Below, piece after piece: positions 24,280 through 33,422 of a DNA stretch of 37,269 bases. The notes beneath the pieces were generated by a model. It was not told the DNA's origin. It saw only the letters and a program-made list of their open reading frames with translations, and made no database searches. Source of the stretch: a bacterium (GTDB taxonomy: Bacteria > Bacillota > Clostridia > Lachnospirales > Lachnospiraceae); NCBI GenBank assembly GCA_023666335.1, contig JAMPCE010000021.1:1-37269 (forward strand), given 5' to 3'. Each line of letters opens with the position of its first letter. Position 1 is the stretch's first letter. The position numbers were made by a program, and so were the translations under genes.

Positions 24280-25380
24280 ATGGCAGGTTCATCACTGGGA
24301 ATTATCTACCGAATCACCACTTGGGGCGAGTCTCACGGTCCCGGGCTTGGCGTCGTGATCGACGGCTGCCCCGCCGGGCTTCCCCTCCATGTAAACGACA
24401 TTCAGACATATTTGGACAGGCGGAAACCGGGAAAAAGCCGGATCACCACCTCCCGCAAAGAGGCAGACGCCGTGGAGATCCTCTCCGGCGTTTTTGAAGA
24501 AAAGACCACCGGCGCTCCCATCTCCCTGCTTATTCAAAACACCTCGCAGCGTTCCGGAGATTACAGTGAAATAGCGGCTTCCTACCGCCCCGGACACGCC
24601 GATTACACGTTTGACCAAAAATACGGCTTCCGCGACTACCGGGGCGGCGGACGTTCTTCCGGCAGAGAGACCGTCGGACGTGTCGCCGCAGGCGCGATCG
24701 CCGCAAAGGCGCTGCGGGAGTTCGGGATCGAGCTATTTGCCTACACGCGCTCCATCGGTCCGGTATCCATCGACCCGGAACGTTTTGACAGGGCGGCGGC
24801 GGCGGAAACGCCGACCTGTATGCCCGACCGGGACGCTTCCGCCCTGGCGGAAAAGTATCTCTCGGACTGCATGAGCAATTACGACTCCGCGGGCGGTGTG
24901 ATCGAGTGCGTGATCGACGGCGTCCCCGCAGGGCTCGGCGATCCTGTTTTTGAAAAGCTGGACGCCAACCTGGCAAAGGCGCTGATGTCCATCGGCGCGG
25001 TAAAAGCCGTGGAGATCGGCGACGGCATCGAAGTGAGCACCCGCCGCGGCTCTGCCAACAATGACGCGTTCCGCGTACGGGACGGTCAGATCGTAAAAAC
25101 CACGAACCATGCGGGCGGAATTTTGGGCGGCATCAGCGACGGCTCACAGATCGTGCTCCGCGCCCATGTAAAGCCCACCCCCTCCATCTTCTCCCCACAG
25201 GATACCGTGAACCGGGACGGCGAGGAGATCAGCCTTTCCATCAAAGGCCGCCATGATCCCGTGATCGTGCCCCGGGCAGTCGTCGTGGTGGAGAGCATGG
25301 CGGCAATCACGCTGCTGGACGCGCTTTTGGTCAATGCAGGCGCCAAAATGGATCATCTGAAAGCCATTTACAAAAATTAA
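24280..25380 (+). CDS. aroC: Chorismate synthase
   Basis: AroC converts EPSP to chorismate with reduced FMN, the last shared step to Phe, Tyr and Trp. It starts [20 protein letters not shown], the family N-terminus, and shows RPGHADYTF and [18 protein letters not shown]. The 366-residue length is normal. The frame is open upstream to 24112, but GAAAGGG lies 9 nt before the ATG at 24280 and homology begins there. It is monocistronic, on plus, ended by a large terminator. No other shikimate genes are adjacent. Confidence 0.97.
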
Positions 25381-25383
25381 ATC

Positions 25384-25443
25384 AAAAAGAAAAATCAGCA
25401 ATTTGTTAAATTTTGTTTTAACATATTACTGATTTTTCTTTTT
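25384..25443. terminator. Large bidirectional terminator between aroC and the DUF3737 gene
   Basis: A 15-bp perfect stem (25384-25398 with 25429-25443) encloses a second 7-bp hairpin (25404-25410 with 25417-25423). The stem contains A-rich and T-rich arms, so it can work in both directions for the converging genes. The remaining bases to 25555 hold nothing I can identify. Confidence 0.8.
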
Positions 25444-25555
25444 CATTCTCTCCGGACGAATCAGAAGGCGCAAATTAAGTCAACCTTGCTCCTGCTCCCA
25501 CAAATATCATAATATCGTACAATAACATCCGCCGTTTTCGGCTGTCCTTAAAATA

Positions 25556-29230: not shown

Positions 29231-30454
29231 TTATGCTATGATCTTCTTAAAGTTCTTCTTTCCCTTTTTCACAATGAACTCCTCTGCTGCGATCTGTTCT
29301 TTCGTGTAGCAGGTTTTTAAGTCCGTCACCTTTTCTCCCTTGATCGTCACGCCGCCCTGTTCGATCGCCCTGCGCGCGTCAGAGCGGGAAGACGCAAGCC
29401 CAGCCGCCACCAAAACGCCCTGAATGTCGATCTTTCCGTCCCGAAAATCTTCCTCTGTCAGGGTCACTGTCGGCATATTCTCCAAACTTCCGCCGCCGGA
29501 AAAGAGCGCCTTTGACGCCTCTTTCGCTTTTTTCGCCTCCTCCTCGCCGTGCACGAGGTTCGTCAGCTCATAGGCAAGGATATCTTTCGCCTCGTTCAGT
29601 TGGCTGCCCTCCCAGCCGTCCATCTCCTCGATCTGTGAGAGGGGCAGGAACGTCAGCATCCGCAGGCATTTTAAGACATCCGCGTCATCGACGTTACGCC
29701 AATACTGATAGAACTCATAAGGCGAAGTCTTGTCGGGATCGAGCCACACCGCGCCTTTCTGCGTCTTACCCATCTTCTTGCCCTCGGAATTCATGAGGAG
29801 CGTGATCGTCATGGCATAAGCGTCCTTGGATAATTTACGGCGGATCAGGTCCGTGCCGCCCAGCATATTGCTCCACTGATCGTCCCCGCCAAACTGCATA
29901 TTGCAGCCGTATCGCTTGTAAAGCTCCAGGAAATCATAACTCTGCATGATCATGTAGTTGAACTCCAAAAAGCTTAAGCCTTTCTCCATCCGCTGTTTGT
30001 AGCACTCCGCGCGGAGCATATTGTTCACGGAGAAGCACGGTCCCACCTCTCGGATAAATTCGACATAATTTAAGTCAAGGAGCCAGTCCGCATTGTTGAC
30101 CATCAGCGCCTTTCCCTCGGAAAAGTCGATAAAACGGCTCATCTGCTTCTTAAAGCACTCGCAGTTGTGCGCGATCGTCTCTTTCGTCATCATGGAACGC
30201 ATATCCGTTCTGCCGGAAGGATCTCCAATCATCGCCGTGCCGCCGCCAATCAGCGCAATAGGCTTGTTTCCCGCCTCCTGCAAACGCTTCATCAGACAAA
30301 GCGCCATAAAATGCCCTACATGCAGGCTGTCCGCCGTCGGATCGAACCCGATGTAAAAAGTCGCTTTGCCGTTGTTGATCAGCTCGCGGATCTGAGCCTC
30401 ATCCGTCAGCTGCGCGAGAAGTCCCCGCGCCTGCAATTCTTCGTAGATTCCCAT
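29231..30454 (-). CDS. tyrS: Tyrosyl-tRNA synthetase
   Basis: TyrS charges tRNA-Tyr. The class I signatures are [12 protein letters not shown] (HIGH-type) and KMGKT (KMSKS-type). The tyrosine-recognition segment is [20 protein letters not shown], and a C-terminal S4-like RNA-binding domain runs from about 345. The 407-residue length is typical. The ATG has GGAGG 5 nt upstream, within the leader that also holds a T-box and the three-hairpin element. The adjacent iorAB operon consumes aromatic keto acids, a thematic link only. Confidence 0.97.
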
Positions 30455-30461
30455 TTTTTCC

Positions 30462-30592
30462 TCCGTTCCGAAGCGTTCTACGCTGAGGCCGCGAGCAGAA
30501 TCTCAAATTCTGCTCTGCGATCATAGGAATTTGTGACGCTTCACCACAAATTCCAGATTGAAAAAAATGCTCATCAGAGATTTTTTTCAATC
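30462..30592 (-). repeat. Three-hairpin structured repeat, copy B (tyrS leader)
   Basis: Hairpins in + coordinates are: H1 30493-30501 with 30507-30515 (9 bp, loop CTCAA); H2 30526-30535 with 30545-30554 (10 bp, loop ACGCTTCAC); H3 30556-30568 with 30580-30592 (13 bp) capped by a CTC/GAG stem and ATCA loop. The H2 loop can pair with 30470-30476 (7 bp), 5 nt upstream of GGAGG. The same architecture with different stem sequences recurs at 31559-31688. It separates the T-box terminator from the tyrS start, lengthening the usual gap. The strand is inferred from its place before minus-strand start codons. Confidence 0.8.
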
Positions 30593-30619
30593 ATCTCCCT
30601 TTCTTTTCTGCAAACAGGA

Positions 30620-30938
30620 AACCCCCGTCCTGTATCAGGACGAGGGTTAAACTCGTGCTACCACCTAATTTCACAGACGGCTCGCGCCGACTGCCTCATT
30701 GAGTACTGCGTATAAATAACTCGCGTTATTAGCTCATTCCGCAATACTCCGCCGCGATAACGTGCGGCATTCCGCCACAGCCTACTAAGAACGCCCCGTT
30801 CCATTCTGCCGTGAAGCTCCGAGATGTATTCATGGAAAAGTTCCCGCGCGCCTCTCATCAACCGGCTGCTCTCTGTTCGTTCCCTGATCCACTACTTGTT
30901 CTCTTCATCGCCTGTTTTTGTCTCTGTTTTCTTACTGC
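30620..30938 (-). promoter_or_regulatory. Tyrosine T-box riboswitch
   Basis: The leader of tyrS shows a stem I with specifier TAC (Tyr) at 30826-30828 in the context GAATACATCTC. The antiterminator is canonical: AGG (30664-30666), 7-nt bulge TGGTAGC (30657-30663) and ACGAG (30652-30656) pair with CTCGT and CCT (30637-30644). The competing terminator is a 7-bp plus 5-bp stem with one mismatch at 30620-30648; its U-run is weak. Uncharged tRNA-Tyr would bind TGGT and allow read-through. It may also end read-through from the iorAB operon upstream. Confidence 0.92.
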
Positions 30939-30943
30939 CTAAT

Positions 30944-30972
30944 AATTTATACGATAACTTCCCGTTTGTCAA
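30944..30972 (-). promoter_or_regulatory. tyrS promoter
   Basis: On the minus strand a perfect TTGACA (30967-30972), a 17-nt spacer and TAAATT (30944-30949). It begins 8 nt past the iorB stop codon, so tyrS has its own start although no terminator separates it from iorB. Confidence 0.8.
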
Positions 30973-30979
30973 CTGTTTT

Positions 30980-31552
30980 TTACGCGCTTTCTCCCAGCGC
31001 GAACGCCTTTTTGTTCAATTCCAAGAACTTTGGCGGCACGCTCTGTTCGATCGCTTCCATCCACTCTTCTTTGGTAAAGTCAAAATAGTTCGCCAGCCGC
31101 CCCATCAACACCAGATTGACCGCCTTGCTGCTCCCCGCTTCCTCCGCGAGCGTCAGCGCATCCAGCGCGTCCACCTGGATCCCCAGCGCTAAAAGTTTCT
31201 CCGTCAGATTCTCGGGATAGACCGCCGCGCCCGCGATCACCGGCATGGGATTGACCTGCTGGCTGTTTACAATGATTCTGCCGCCTGGTTTTAGGAACTC
31301 TGTATAGCGCGCCGCTTCCAGCAGCTCAAACGAGAGGATGCAGTACGCCTGTCCCTTGTCGATGATGGGAGAATACACCCGCTCGCCCCAGCGCACATAA
31401 GTGACCACGCTGCCGCCGCGCTGGCTCATGCCGTGCACCTCGCTCACTTTCACATCGTATCCTTTTGTGAGGAGCAGCCGCCCTAAGAGTTTACTCGCAA
31501 GAAGCGTGCCCTGACCGCCTACCCCCACGATCATGATATTTTTTGTTTCCAT
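30980..31552 (-). CDS. iorB: Indolepyruvate:ferredoxin oxidoreductase, beta subunit
   Basis: IorB is the small subunit (2-oxoacid:acceptor oxidoreductase gamma-type domain) that with IorA turns arylpyruvates plus CoA into aryl-acetyl-CoA, CO2 and reduced ferredoxin. It starts METKNIMIVGVGGQGTLLAS (GVGGQG nucleotide/CoA motif) and has SEVHGMSQRGGSV, both family hallmarks; 190 residues is the usual length. The start at 31552 has GGAG 6 nt upstream; the longer open frame upstream covers the structured repeat. It is separated from iorA by that repeat. Confidence 0.92.
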   Translation of the reverse strand: METKNIMIVGVGGQGTLLASKLLGRLLLTKGYDVKVSEVHGMSQRGGSVVTYVRWGERVYSPIIDKGQAYCILSFELLEAARYTEFLKPGGRIIVNSQQVNPMPVIAGAAVYPENLTEKLLALGIQVDALDALTLAEEAGSSKAVNLVLMGRLANYFDFTKEEWMEAIEQSVPPKFLELNKKAFALGESA

Positions 31553-31558
31553 ATTATT

Positions 31559-31688
31559 CTCCATTCCGGAGCGTCTTCGCGACGGGGCGACGCAAATCTC
31601 AAATTTGCGTCTGCCATCATACAAATTTGTGACGCTCCTACACAAATTTGCGTGTAAAAAATCAGCACATCAGTGTGATTTTTTACAC
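31559..31688 (-). repeat. Three-hairpin structured repeat, copy A (iorA-iorB junction)
   Basis: Hairpins in + coordinates are: H1 31589-31597 with 31603-31611 (9 bp, loop CTCAA); H2 31622-31631 with 31641-31650 (10 bp, loop ACGCTCCTA); H3 31652-31663 with 31677-31688 (12 bp) containing CAC/GTG around an ATCA loop. The H2 loop region 31631-31638 pairs with 31568-31575 (8 bp), ending 5 nt before the GGAG of iorB. Compared with copy B, loops are kept and stems covary. The iorA stop codon lies inside H3, so insertion may have reshaped the end of iorA. Confidence 0.8.
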
Positions 31689-33422
31689 ACCTCCTCCATC
31701 AAGTGCCCCAAATTTGCATAACTGCTCACAGACCCCGCACCCCACGCACAGGGTATTGTCGATCTTGACTTTCCCGTCCGTCACGCTGATCGCCGGGCAG
31801 CCGATCTTCATGCAGACCTTGCAGCCCTTACATTTCTCCGGATCGGCACAGATCGGTCCCGGATGCTTCACATATTTGAGCAGCGCGCAGGGACGGCGGG
31901 AAATGATGACCGACGGCTCCTTTGCCGCCAGTTCCTCCGTAAGCGCCTTTTCGCAGGCGTCCATATCGTAGGGATCCACCACCCGCACCCTATTGATGCC
32001 GACCGCGTGGCAGAGGGTCTCCAGATCGATCTTTGTACAGGGATCGCCTTTCAGATTATATCCTGTAGTCGGATTCTGCTGATGCCCCGTCATACCCGTA
32101 ATGGAGTTGTCCAGAATAATGACGGTCGCATTCGATTCGTTGTAAGCGATATTGATCAGACCCGTAACGCCGGAGTGAATAAAGGTCGAGTCGCCGATCA
32201 CCGCTACCGTCTTTCCTTCCCGCTCTTCGCCGCCCGCTTTCACAAAACCGTGCAGCCCCGATACGGACGCACCCATACAGATCGTCGTGTCGATCGCATT
32301 TAAGGGCGCCACCGCTCCCAATGTATAACAGCCGATATCTCCCAGAACCGTGAGGTTCATCTTCTTTAATACATAGAATATGCTGCGGTGCGGACAACCC
32401 GCGCACATCACGGGCGGTCTCGCCGGAATCTCCTCCGAAAGGACAGGTCCTGCCTGCACTTTCCCGCCGAGCTTTTCCGCGACGATATTCTGGCTCAGCT
32501 CACCGACTGCGGAAAACAGTTCTTTTCCCGTCACCGCAAGCCCCAGGTTCCGGCAGTGCGCCTCGATAAAGCCGTCCAATTCCTCCACCACCACCAGCTT
32601 CTCCACCGAAGCTGCGAAATCGCGGATCTTTCTCTCCGGCATCGGCCAGATCATCCCCAGCTTCAAAACGGGATAGGTATCCCCGAATGCCTCTTTCACA
32701 TACTGATAGCAGGTCGAGGAAGTGACGATGCCGTACTTTTTGTCAGTTCCCGCCTCAATGCGGTTGATCTCTGCAGTCTCCGCCCACTCCGCCAAAGCCT
32801 TTGTGCGCGCTTCCACAGCCGGATGTTTCTTTTTCGCATACCCCGGCATCATAATGTATTTTGCGGAATTCTTTTCGTATGGCTTTTCTTTCGGCAGCAC
32901 GCGCTCCGCCGTCTCCACCACGCTCTGGGAGTGGCTTACGCGGGTGCACATCTTAAGAAGCACCGCCGTGTCAAACTGCTCGGAAAGTTCGTAGGCGAGT
33001 TTCGCAAAGGCAAGCCCCTCCGCCGCATCGGAGGGCTCCAGCATGGGTACTTTCGCGCTTAAAGCATAGTGGCGGGAATCCTGTTCGTTCTGGGAACTGT
33101 GCATCCCGGCGTCATCCGCCACGCCTAGGATCAGTCCCGCACCTACGCCCGTATAAGAAATCGTAAACAGCGGATCCGCTGCCACATTTAAGCCCACATG
33201 CTTCATCGCGCAAAAGCTTCTCTTTCCCGCCAGAGACGCGCCAAACGCCGCCTCGAGCGCAACTTTCTCGTTCGGCGCCCATTCCGCGTAGACCTCCTCG
33301 TATTTCGCCACGCATTCGGTGATCTCCGTGCTGGGCGTCCCCGGATAACTGGACACAAAACTGCATCCCGCCTCATAAAGCCCTCTGGCAACCGCCTCAT
33401 TGCCAAGCATCAATGTCTTCAT
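31683..33422 (-). CDS. iorA: Indolepyruvate:ferredoxin oxidoreductase, alpha subunit
   Basis: This 579-residue TPP-dependent subunit has an N-terminal pyrimidine-binding domain (SSYPGTPSTEITE), a central domain with CAGCPHR, and a TPP/Mg domain with GDSTFIHSGVTGLINIAYN and ILDNSITGMTGHQ. A C-terminal ferredoxin-like part has two cysteine clusters (CKGCKVCMKIGCP and CVGCGVCEQLC), binding [4Fe-4S] clusters. It acts on indole-, phenyl- and hydroxyphenyl-pyruvate in aromatic amino acid fermentation. AAAGGAT lies about 8 nt before the ATG. It follows the symporter by 60 nt. Confidence 0.96.
   Translation of the reverse strand: MKTLMLGNEAVARGLYEAGCSFVSSYPGTPSTEITECVAKYEEVYAEWAPNEKVALEAAFGASLAGKRSFCAMKHVGLNVAADPLFTISYTGVGAGLILGVADDAGMHSSQNEQDSRHYALSAKVPMLEPSDAAEGLAFAKLAYELSEQFDTAVLLKMCTRVSHSQSVVETAERVLPKEKPYEKNSAKYIMMPGYAKKKHPAVEARTKALAEWAETAEINRIEAGTDKKYGIVTSSTCYQYVKEAFGDTYPVLKLGMIWPMPERKIRDFAASVEKLVVVEELDGFIEAHCRNLGLAVTGKELFSAVGELSQNIVAEKLGGKVQAGPVLSEEIPARPPVMCAGCPHRSIFYVLKKMNLTVLGDIGCYTLGAVAPLNAIDTTICMGASVSGLHGFVKAGGEEREGKTVAVIGDSTFIHSGVTGLINIAYNESNATVIILDNSITGMTGHQQNPTTGYNLKGDPCTKIDLETLCHAVGINRVRVVDPYDMDACEKALTEELAAKEPSVIISRRPCALLKYVKHPGPICADPEKCKGCKVCMKIGCPAISVTDGKVKIDNTLCVGCGVCEQLCKFGALDGGGV

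Follow-up and report, generated by a model that had tools for sequence, protein, structure and literature searches.

The tyrS and iorB genes of a Lachnospiraceae genome are each preceded by a copy of the same folded element, which raises the question of whether this element is an RNA structure kept by selection or a repeat that travels between leaders. Both copies lie in the window, i.e., the whole stretch of DNA that was analysed (37,269 nucleotides, GCA_023666335.1, contig JAMPCE010000021.1). The element is a repeat of about 137 nt, predicted to form three hairpins (H1, H2 and H3) and a pseudoknot, and some Lachnospiraceae genomes hold as many as about 120 copies of it. We regard it as a dispersed family, probably a non-autonomous mobile element that uses the gap between the Shine-Dalgarno sequence and the start codon as a safe site. 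The copy number, the position, the direction, the empty orthologous sites in other species and the covarying pairing (three hairpins plus a loop-to-tail pseudoknot), all directly observed, back this explanation. Because the repeat brings its own Shine-Dalgarno sequence, its probable spread as a mobile element would leave the entered genes active.

The two copies in the window

A preliminary description of this DNA had reported two structured copies, before tyrS and before iorB, which share a layout and differ in the letters of their stems. Both are present and fold as described, with none of 200 dinucleotide shuffles as stable for either copy (Table 1), and a pairwise alignment returned the same layout with different stems. 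The placement in the two leaders also holds, but the strand is minus, and the extents of 30462-30592 and 31559-31688 given previously are replaced by those in Table 1. Read on the minus strand, the element has the transcript order H3, H2, H1, tail, Shine-Dalgarno sequence and ATG, and the ATCA loop reported for H3 is TGAT.

A covariance model, R1, was built from ten aligned copies and a hand-set structure that is broken by none of the ten, with one outer pair added later. Both window copies are among the ten training sequences of R1, and their bit scores in Table 1 are those of training copies. In a search of the whole window with Rfam 15, no family reached the gathering threshold over the element, and below the threshold (region search, E up to 5) only chance-level matches fell on it. 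The same database gave nothing over the element at eight loci with related copies, in agreement with the preliminary description, in which it was not recognised as a named RNA class. In the open-access literature searched, the element was not named, and the slot between the Shine-Dalgarno sequence and the start codon was not brought up for such repeats.

Upstream of the tyrS copy lies a T-box leader (RF00230, 99.2 bits, window 30633-30917, minus strand), so that a T-box and an inserted repeat share one leader. The possibility that the element is a part of the T-box was rejected, as the T-box is a separate Rfam match upstream and none lies over the element. Elsewhere in the window, an inverted repeat at 25380-25447 with 31-nt arms (90% complementary, 6 nt apart) was the sole pair reported at a length of at least 28, a seed of 10 and a distance of up to 80.

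Table 1. Parts of the two copies of the repeat and the Shine-Dalgarno sequences around them, in window coordinates
Feature	Positions	Strand	Basis
Full element, tyrS leader	30455..30592	-	R1 147.9 bits, training copy; fold z-score -7.16
Full element between iorA and iorB	31553..31688	-	R1 146.0 bits, training copy; fold z-score -7.28
tyrS copy, H3: 13+3 bp, bulged C, TGAT loop	30556..30592	-	Fold; pairs counted in the covariation analysis as helices 1 and 2
tyrS copy, H2: 10 bp, 9-nt loop GTGAAGCGT	30526..30554	-	Fold
tyrS copy, H1: bulged A, TTGAG loop	30490..30519	-	Fold
tyrS copy, pseudoknot 3' strand ACGCTTC, pairs with GAAGCGT of the H2 loop	30468..30476	-	Duplex -10.8 kcal/mol; covariation
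tyrS copy, own Shine-Dalgarno GGAACGGAGG; ATG then at 30454	30460..30469	-	Sequence
Older Shine-Dalgarno-like run AAAGGGAG, directly upstream of the tyrS copy	30595..30602	-	Sequence; family-wide counts
iorB copy, H3; iorA stop codon (31683) inside	31652..31688	-	Fold
iorB copy, H2, loop TAGGAGCGT	31622..31650	-	Fold
iorB copy, H1: bulged A, TTGAG loop	31586..31615	-	Fold
iorB copy, pseudoknot 3' strand ACGCTCC, pairs with GGAGCGT of the H2 loop	31566..31574	-	Duplex -13.0 kcal/mol
iorB copy, own Shine-Dalgarno GGAATGGAG; ATG then at 31552	31559..31567	-	Sequence
Older Shine-Dalgarno GGAGGAGGT, directly upstream of the iorB copy	31689..31697	-	Sequence

Copy number and distribution

A covariance-model search of the kind suggested in the preliminary description brought up many further copies with strong covariation, pointing to a structured family that is not registered. 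In the genome of the window, a DNA search found full copies and fragments, and R1 found 17 copies with E < 1e-20. For a deeper count, up to 150 candidates were scored with R1 in each of ten genomes from the genus. Accepting E up to 1e-5 and counting fragments, six of these genomes had 120, 62, 57, 43, 43 and 25 matches and the four others had 0. The element thus shows what defines a small interspersed repeat, i.e., many dispersed copies (17 in its own genome) whose number varies among relatives, here from 0 to 120 in the ten genomes.

Beyond the genus, matches are scattered in the samples scored. A first survey, with 54 candidates scored per genome under stricter filters, found a match at E up to 0.01 in 34 of 61 genomes, comprising 33 of 37 from the same genus and 1 of 24 others. 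Among 295 genomes of the order, again under stricter filters and with 11 candidates scored per genome, nine had a match at E up to 1e-8, i.e., the genome of the window, five more from the family but outside the genus, and three from a single further family. Scanning named genomes with a pattern yielded at least 115 stretches; the pattern used to fetch them lay in H1 (GCAG, AATTTGARATT, CGC), so the conservation of those H1 bases is by construction. The 80 titles among the matches listed were mostly Lachnospiraceae, with some Acetatifactor, Roseburia and Eisenbergiella, and the others were labelled only Clostridia or Eubacteriales, plus single odd labels. One such label, Muribaculaceae for locus L187, is doubtful because the flanks of L187 are identical to those of L084, which comes from a relative, and L131 was left out as a likely chance match. 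The genus to which the window belongs also includes the Lachnospiraceae bacterium UBA3282, as the flanks in G002 and in that record are identical (L073 and L139). A single copy (L232) sits on a 17 kb contig classed as viral, a possible vehicle.

Position before start codons

Among the copies examined, most are in sense orientation, with a Shine-Dalgarno sequence ahead of them and a start codon behind them, and supply a further Shine-Dalgarno sequence at their own end. This placement was missed in the preliminary description. At the fetched loci, a Shine-Dalgarno sequence, a start codon and an open frame follow at narrow spacing after 111 of 136 evaluable copies, compared with 303 of 3000 random positions. 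Many of the 25 copies that failed this test precede, by eye, a start codon with a weak Shine-Dalgarno sequence or another repeat; L192, L198 and L230 are plainly not before a start codon. On the upstream side, a Shine-Dalgarno-like 4-mer lies within 14 nt of 85 of the 95 copies with a clear H3 (drawn from 139 copies; H3 of 35-38 nt and at least 22 nt upstream), compared with 1059 of 5000 random positions. A logo of the upstream letters, based on the 115 of 139 copies in which a script found H3 (a few of them misplaced), is 82-88% purine at positions -8 to -4 and has A in 75% at position -1. Shortened copies, with H3 fused to the tail or with the tail alone, were seen at L009, L012 and L013, and the start codon still follows directly.

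In the genome of the window, each of the 17 strong copies reaches an open frame of 60 codons or more, ending where the frame starts or no further than 12 nt into it. A Pfam family was assigned to 14 of these 17 frames and none to the other three. The genes are unrelated, namely DUF1385, alaS, tyrS, a deoB-like metalloenzyme, ABC, iorB, GH2, rnfB, GT52, argJ, mrpF, a class II tRNA synthetase, parB and SDR (gene names beyond Pfam are our own reading), which makes a single-ligand regulator unlikely. A peptide-coding element or leader peptide was considered and rejected, since the reading frame is not kept across copies. The frame of type A corresponds to 31 short predicted proteins, one of which is named, as hypothetical; by eye, the start codon or the frame is lost in copies with GTGTAA, GATTAA or GGGGG starts and in type B.

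Empty orthologous sites

The preliminary description had favoured a selected RNA structure over simple DNA duplication. However, empty orthologous sites and the range from 0 to 120 matches per genome within the genus identify the copies as dispersed insertions. Empty orthologous sites are a feature of small interspersed repeats such as miniature inverted-repeat transposable elements (MITEs); those seen here come from other species. In the iorA-iorB slot, the element was found only in the window's genome among 22 loci. The gap is short in 13 of the 21 relatives (14-35 nt, on a scale where the filled allele measures 145), one of which, G031, holds a tail-only remnant, and the remaining 8 of 21 have other inserts. 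In the rnfA-rnfB slot, for which loci from 30 of 71 genomes with a match were looked at, 0 of 29 relatives carry the element, with a gap of at most 24 nt in 18 of them and a longer one in 11. At one further locus, L088, a divergent copy occupies the rnfB slot, so that loss and repeated entry are indistinguishable there.

A third set of filled and empty alleles, L100 versus L112, places the insertion between GGAGGAA and GGTATG. The filled allele reads ..ATGGAGGAAA(element ..ATGGAGGTA)GGTATGG and the empty allele ..AAAGGAGGAAGGTATGG. In addition, a related genome (L120) has the T-box leader of tyrS without the element, and tandem copies occur in which one copy enters the end of another (both by eye). 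Terminal inverted repeats, which a classical MITE would have, were not seen by eye, as the ends GTGTG.. and ..GGAATGGAGATTA are not inverted repeats, and no fixed-length target duplication was seen by eye at the copy junctions or in the L100/L112 pair.

Covariation and the pseudoknot

In an alignment of 110 distinct rows (A4), 44 pairs in five helices have 96.4% of their cells paired. Changes on both sides occur in 41 of the 44 pairs, with 603 double-change cells versus 164 in shuffles, and 0 of 500 shuffles reached the observed values; A4 and a further alignment, A5, were made by fitting to the R1 structure with H1-H3, a procedure that favours the pairs of these hairpins; the pseudoknot is not in R1. 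Two bulges were absent from the preliminary description. The bulged C of H3 occurs in 53 of the 114 rows of A4, and the bulged A of H1 in 104 of 114, although the latter base was part of the pattern that fetched most rows. At some loci the hairpins look remodelled by eye: a small palindrome, GAACGAACTTTGTTCGTTC, lies inside or beside H3 in L138, L146, L159, L192 and L165, as if inserted, and arms of H2 or H1 are extended or replaced by hairpins such as CGCATTCGCG or ACGCAAAATCAAAGATTTTGCTATA in L118, L205, L330, L333 and L326.

The preliminary description missed a further pairing. The H2 loop (7-10 nt) is complementary over 7-10 bp to a stretch that ends 2-5 nt before the element's own Shine-Dalgarno sequence, i.e., GAAGCGU with ACGCUUC in the tyrS copy and GGAGCGU with ACGCUCC in the iorB copy. 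This pseudoknot is 90.2% paired versus 85.0% in shuffles and has 50 double-change cells versus 13.4, values that 0 of 500 shuffles reached in either case, and the pairing drops to 21-48% when one strand is slid by 1-3 columns. Two other measures are weaker, as 7 pairs with a change on both sides were reached by 55 of 500 shuffles, and 19 further pair types by 4 of 500. A run of at least 6 bp is found in 81 of 94 usable rows (out of 114; loop of 6-14 nt, tail of at least 25 nt), compared with 16% of shuffled loops. Remote copies in other genera, read by eye with 2 of 17 loci left out, keep the genomic context and have re-paired the pseudoknot with new letters, e.g., GACGAGC/GCUCGUC and UGCCGAGC/GCUCGGCA. 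The pseudoknot adjoins the new Shine-Dalgarno sequence, which suggests that it keeps that site open; it is predicted to hold the upstream hairpins off this site, so that ribosomes could load.

A sense RNA under selection is expected to tolerate G-U more than A-C mismatches. Among 124 near-complete copies (out of 174 unique copies), H1 has 8 G-U and 16 A-C mismatch cells and H3 has 25 and 22, which together give 33 versus 38, as decaying DNA copies would, and H2 has 10 versus 1. The pseudoknot has 53 G-U versus 26 A-C cells in the distinct rows of A4. The proposal of a selected RNA structure thus fits H2 and the pseudoknot, which show an RNA-like bias, and does not fit H1 and H3, although this contrast is only a lead because mismatch cells are not independent. 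Since H1 and H3 lack the bias, covariation by itself is no proof of selection on RNA. For the pseudoknot and H2 we lean towards such selection, and their G-U excess hints at more of an RNA role in the resident copies than a pure parasite needs.

The alternative rated second is a cis-regulatory translational switch, in which the tail strand would pair either with the H2 loop, forming the pseudoknot and leaving the Shine-Dalgarno sequence free, or with the Shine-Dalgarno sequence itself (CUCC/GGAG or CCUC/GAGG), turning the gene off. At least 4 bp between the Shine-Dalgarno sequence and the preceding strand are possible in 77 of 94 usable rows, a count without a chance control, and the tail folds of both window copies close on the Shine-Dalgarno sequence. 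The G-U bias in H2 and the pseudoknot and the context kept in other genera are likewise consistent with a switch. However, the downstream genes share no pathway, species differ in whether iorB and rnfB carry the element, and no ligand pocket or regulon is known. Moreover, some divergent copies keep the pseudoknot and lose the CUCC/GGAG pairing (by eye). The absence of the Shine-Dalgarno-hiding fold from such copies places the switch behind the mobile element and makes it unlikely; on the same ground, a simple anti-Shine-Dalgarno switch was rejected as a conserved principle.

The stems could also belong to a palindromic DNA repeat without any RNA role, whose arms are kept complementary by hairpin-templated repair. 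Such template switching is a published mechanism able to change both arms at once (PMC8794818), and it would account for the similar numbers of G-U and A-C cells in H1 and H3. However, near neighbours in the same set of 124 copies show single-sided steps: across the three stems, 32 of the distinct changes are single and 27 are clean double ones. The strands of the pseudoknot lie almost 60 nt apart across H1, yet covary with a G-U excess, and the H2 counts also point away from repair, leaving this explanation improbable.

Possible mode of insertion

For the preferred reading, a non-autonomous mobile element, target recognition may take place at the purine run GGAGG or immediately behind it. A putative enzyme supplied in trans would insert the element there and restore a Shine-Dalgarno sequence, and the H1 and H3 stems, with their bulges and loops, are the predicted recognition features for this enzyme. 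Selection would then purge the insertions that break genes; insertions elsewhere in genes would be lost, so that the copies that persist are those in the gap ahead of the start codon.

In 37 genomes, the mobilising enzyme was sought as a Y1 transposase or a reverse transcriptase (RT), which were present in 12 and 14 genomes, respectively. Neither tracks the copy number, and G006 (43 matches, 95% complete) has neither, so mobilisation by either protein was rejected. Movement as single-stranded DNA by a Y1 transposase (IS200/IS605, REP-type) would explain bulged hairpins and one-way insertion without duplication, and the bulged bases and strand-specific insertion of the present element recall such systems. 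However, apart from its presence in only a third of the genomes (12 of 37), Y1 was found neither in the window's genome nor in G006, G009, G014, G029 and G031, which have 43-120 matches (G009 and G014 being only 80-81% complete), and H3 sits right at the element's edge; this route is therefore quite doubtful. The position of tyrS beside iorB, and the inclusion of tyrS, iorB, alaS and a further class II tRNA synthetase among the 17 genes, might suggest a regulator dedicated to aromatic amino-acid or tRNA-synthetase genes. Such a regulator is scarcely credible, as the set is mixed and also includes deoB, rnfB, argJ, mrpF, parB, GH2, ABC and DUF1385, and as iorB orthologues lack the element.

Comparison with known systems

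REP/BIME, ERIC and Correia elements are dispersed palindromic repeats able to fold in transcripts, and the present element resembles them in these respects. However, they are not known for one-way insertion at ribosome-binding sites, in which the present element differs. Translational riboswitches, e.g., preQ1 and SAM-II, place a pseudoknot strand directly before the ribosome-binding site. The placement is alike here, but the present element has a high and variable copy number, and one downstream gene function across species, as a riboswitch would have, was not found, as the genes are mixed and the element is not kept at iorB or rnfB. The T-box leader RF00230 likewise stands in the tyrS leader, but is separate and upstream of the element.

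In its behaviour, the present element is comparable to BOX, RUP and SPRITE of Streptococcus pneumoniae. These, too, are small interspersed repeats; they can enter one another, and the authors regard them as parasites (passages of PMC3049150). The same passages of PMC3049150 describe one pneumococcal BOX that forms a composite RNA with T-boxes, and the tyrS copy similarly follows a T-box. Neither a location between Shine-Dalgarno sequence and start codon nor a new Shine-Dalgarno sequence is described in those passages of PMC3049150. BOX is also linked there to ISSpn2-like ends (PMC3049150), whereas no partner was found for the present element among Y1 and RT.

If a repeat can settle in the few bases where a gene is most sensitive, as many as about 120 times in a single genome, and bring its own repair, this would show how selfish sequence can be accommodated in compact bacterial genomes. 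The repeat alters the leaders of essential genes between related species and provides a natural collection of folded leaders, each equipped with a ribosome-binding site. It is also a case where covariation in stems may owe more to mobility and DNA-level change than to a role of the RNA. More speculatively, the gap between the Shine-Dalgarno sequence and the start codon might be a general safe harbour, which at least two apparently unrelated families (the present one, the family Y described below and perhaps the insert X) would enter, stack in and close with a new Shine-Dalgarno sequence. They might do so by a shared start-recognising mechanism, conceivably at the mRNA level, with the pseudoknot handing the ribosome to the new site; we hold this only as a tentative idea.

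Other inserts in the same gap

A second repeat family, Y, consists of a GCGTGAGAAG.ACTTCTA.. hairpin followed by GAGAATGCC..GGCATTCTC, and 16 places are listed for it, some of them counted twice. It was found at L112, L242, L191, L244, L099, L234, L235 and L216. Y fills the gap before the start codon at iorB (L112) and at rnfB (L242), and in L191 it lies directly behind the Shine-Dalgarno sequence of a copy of the present element. In four species (L102, L104, L105 and L106), the iorA-iorB junction holds an insert of yet another kind, X (..ACGATATTTTGCAAGAC..). In L102 and L104, X ends with CGGAATGGAG, like the present element.
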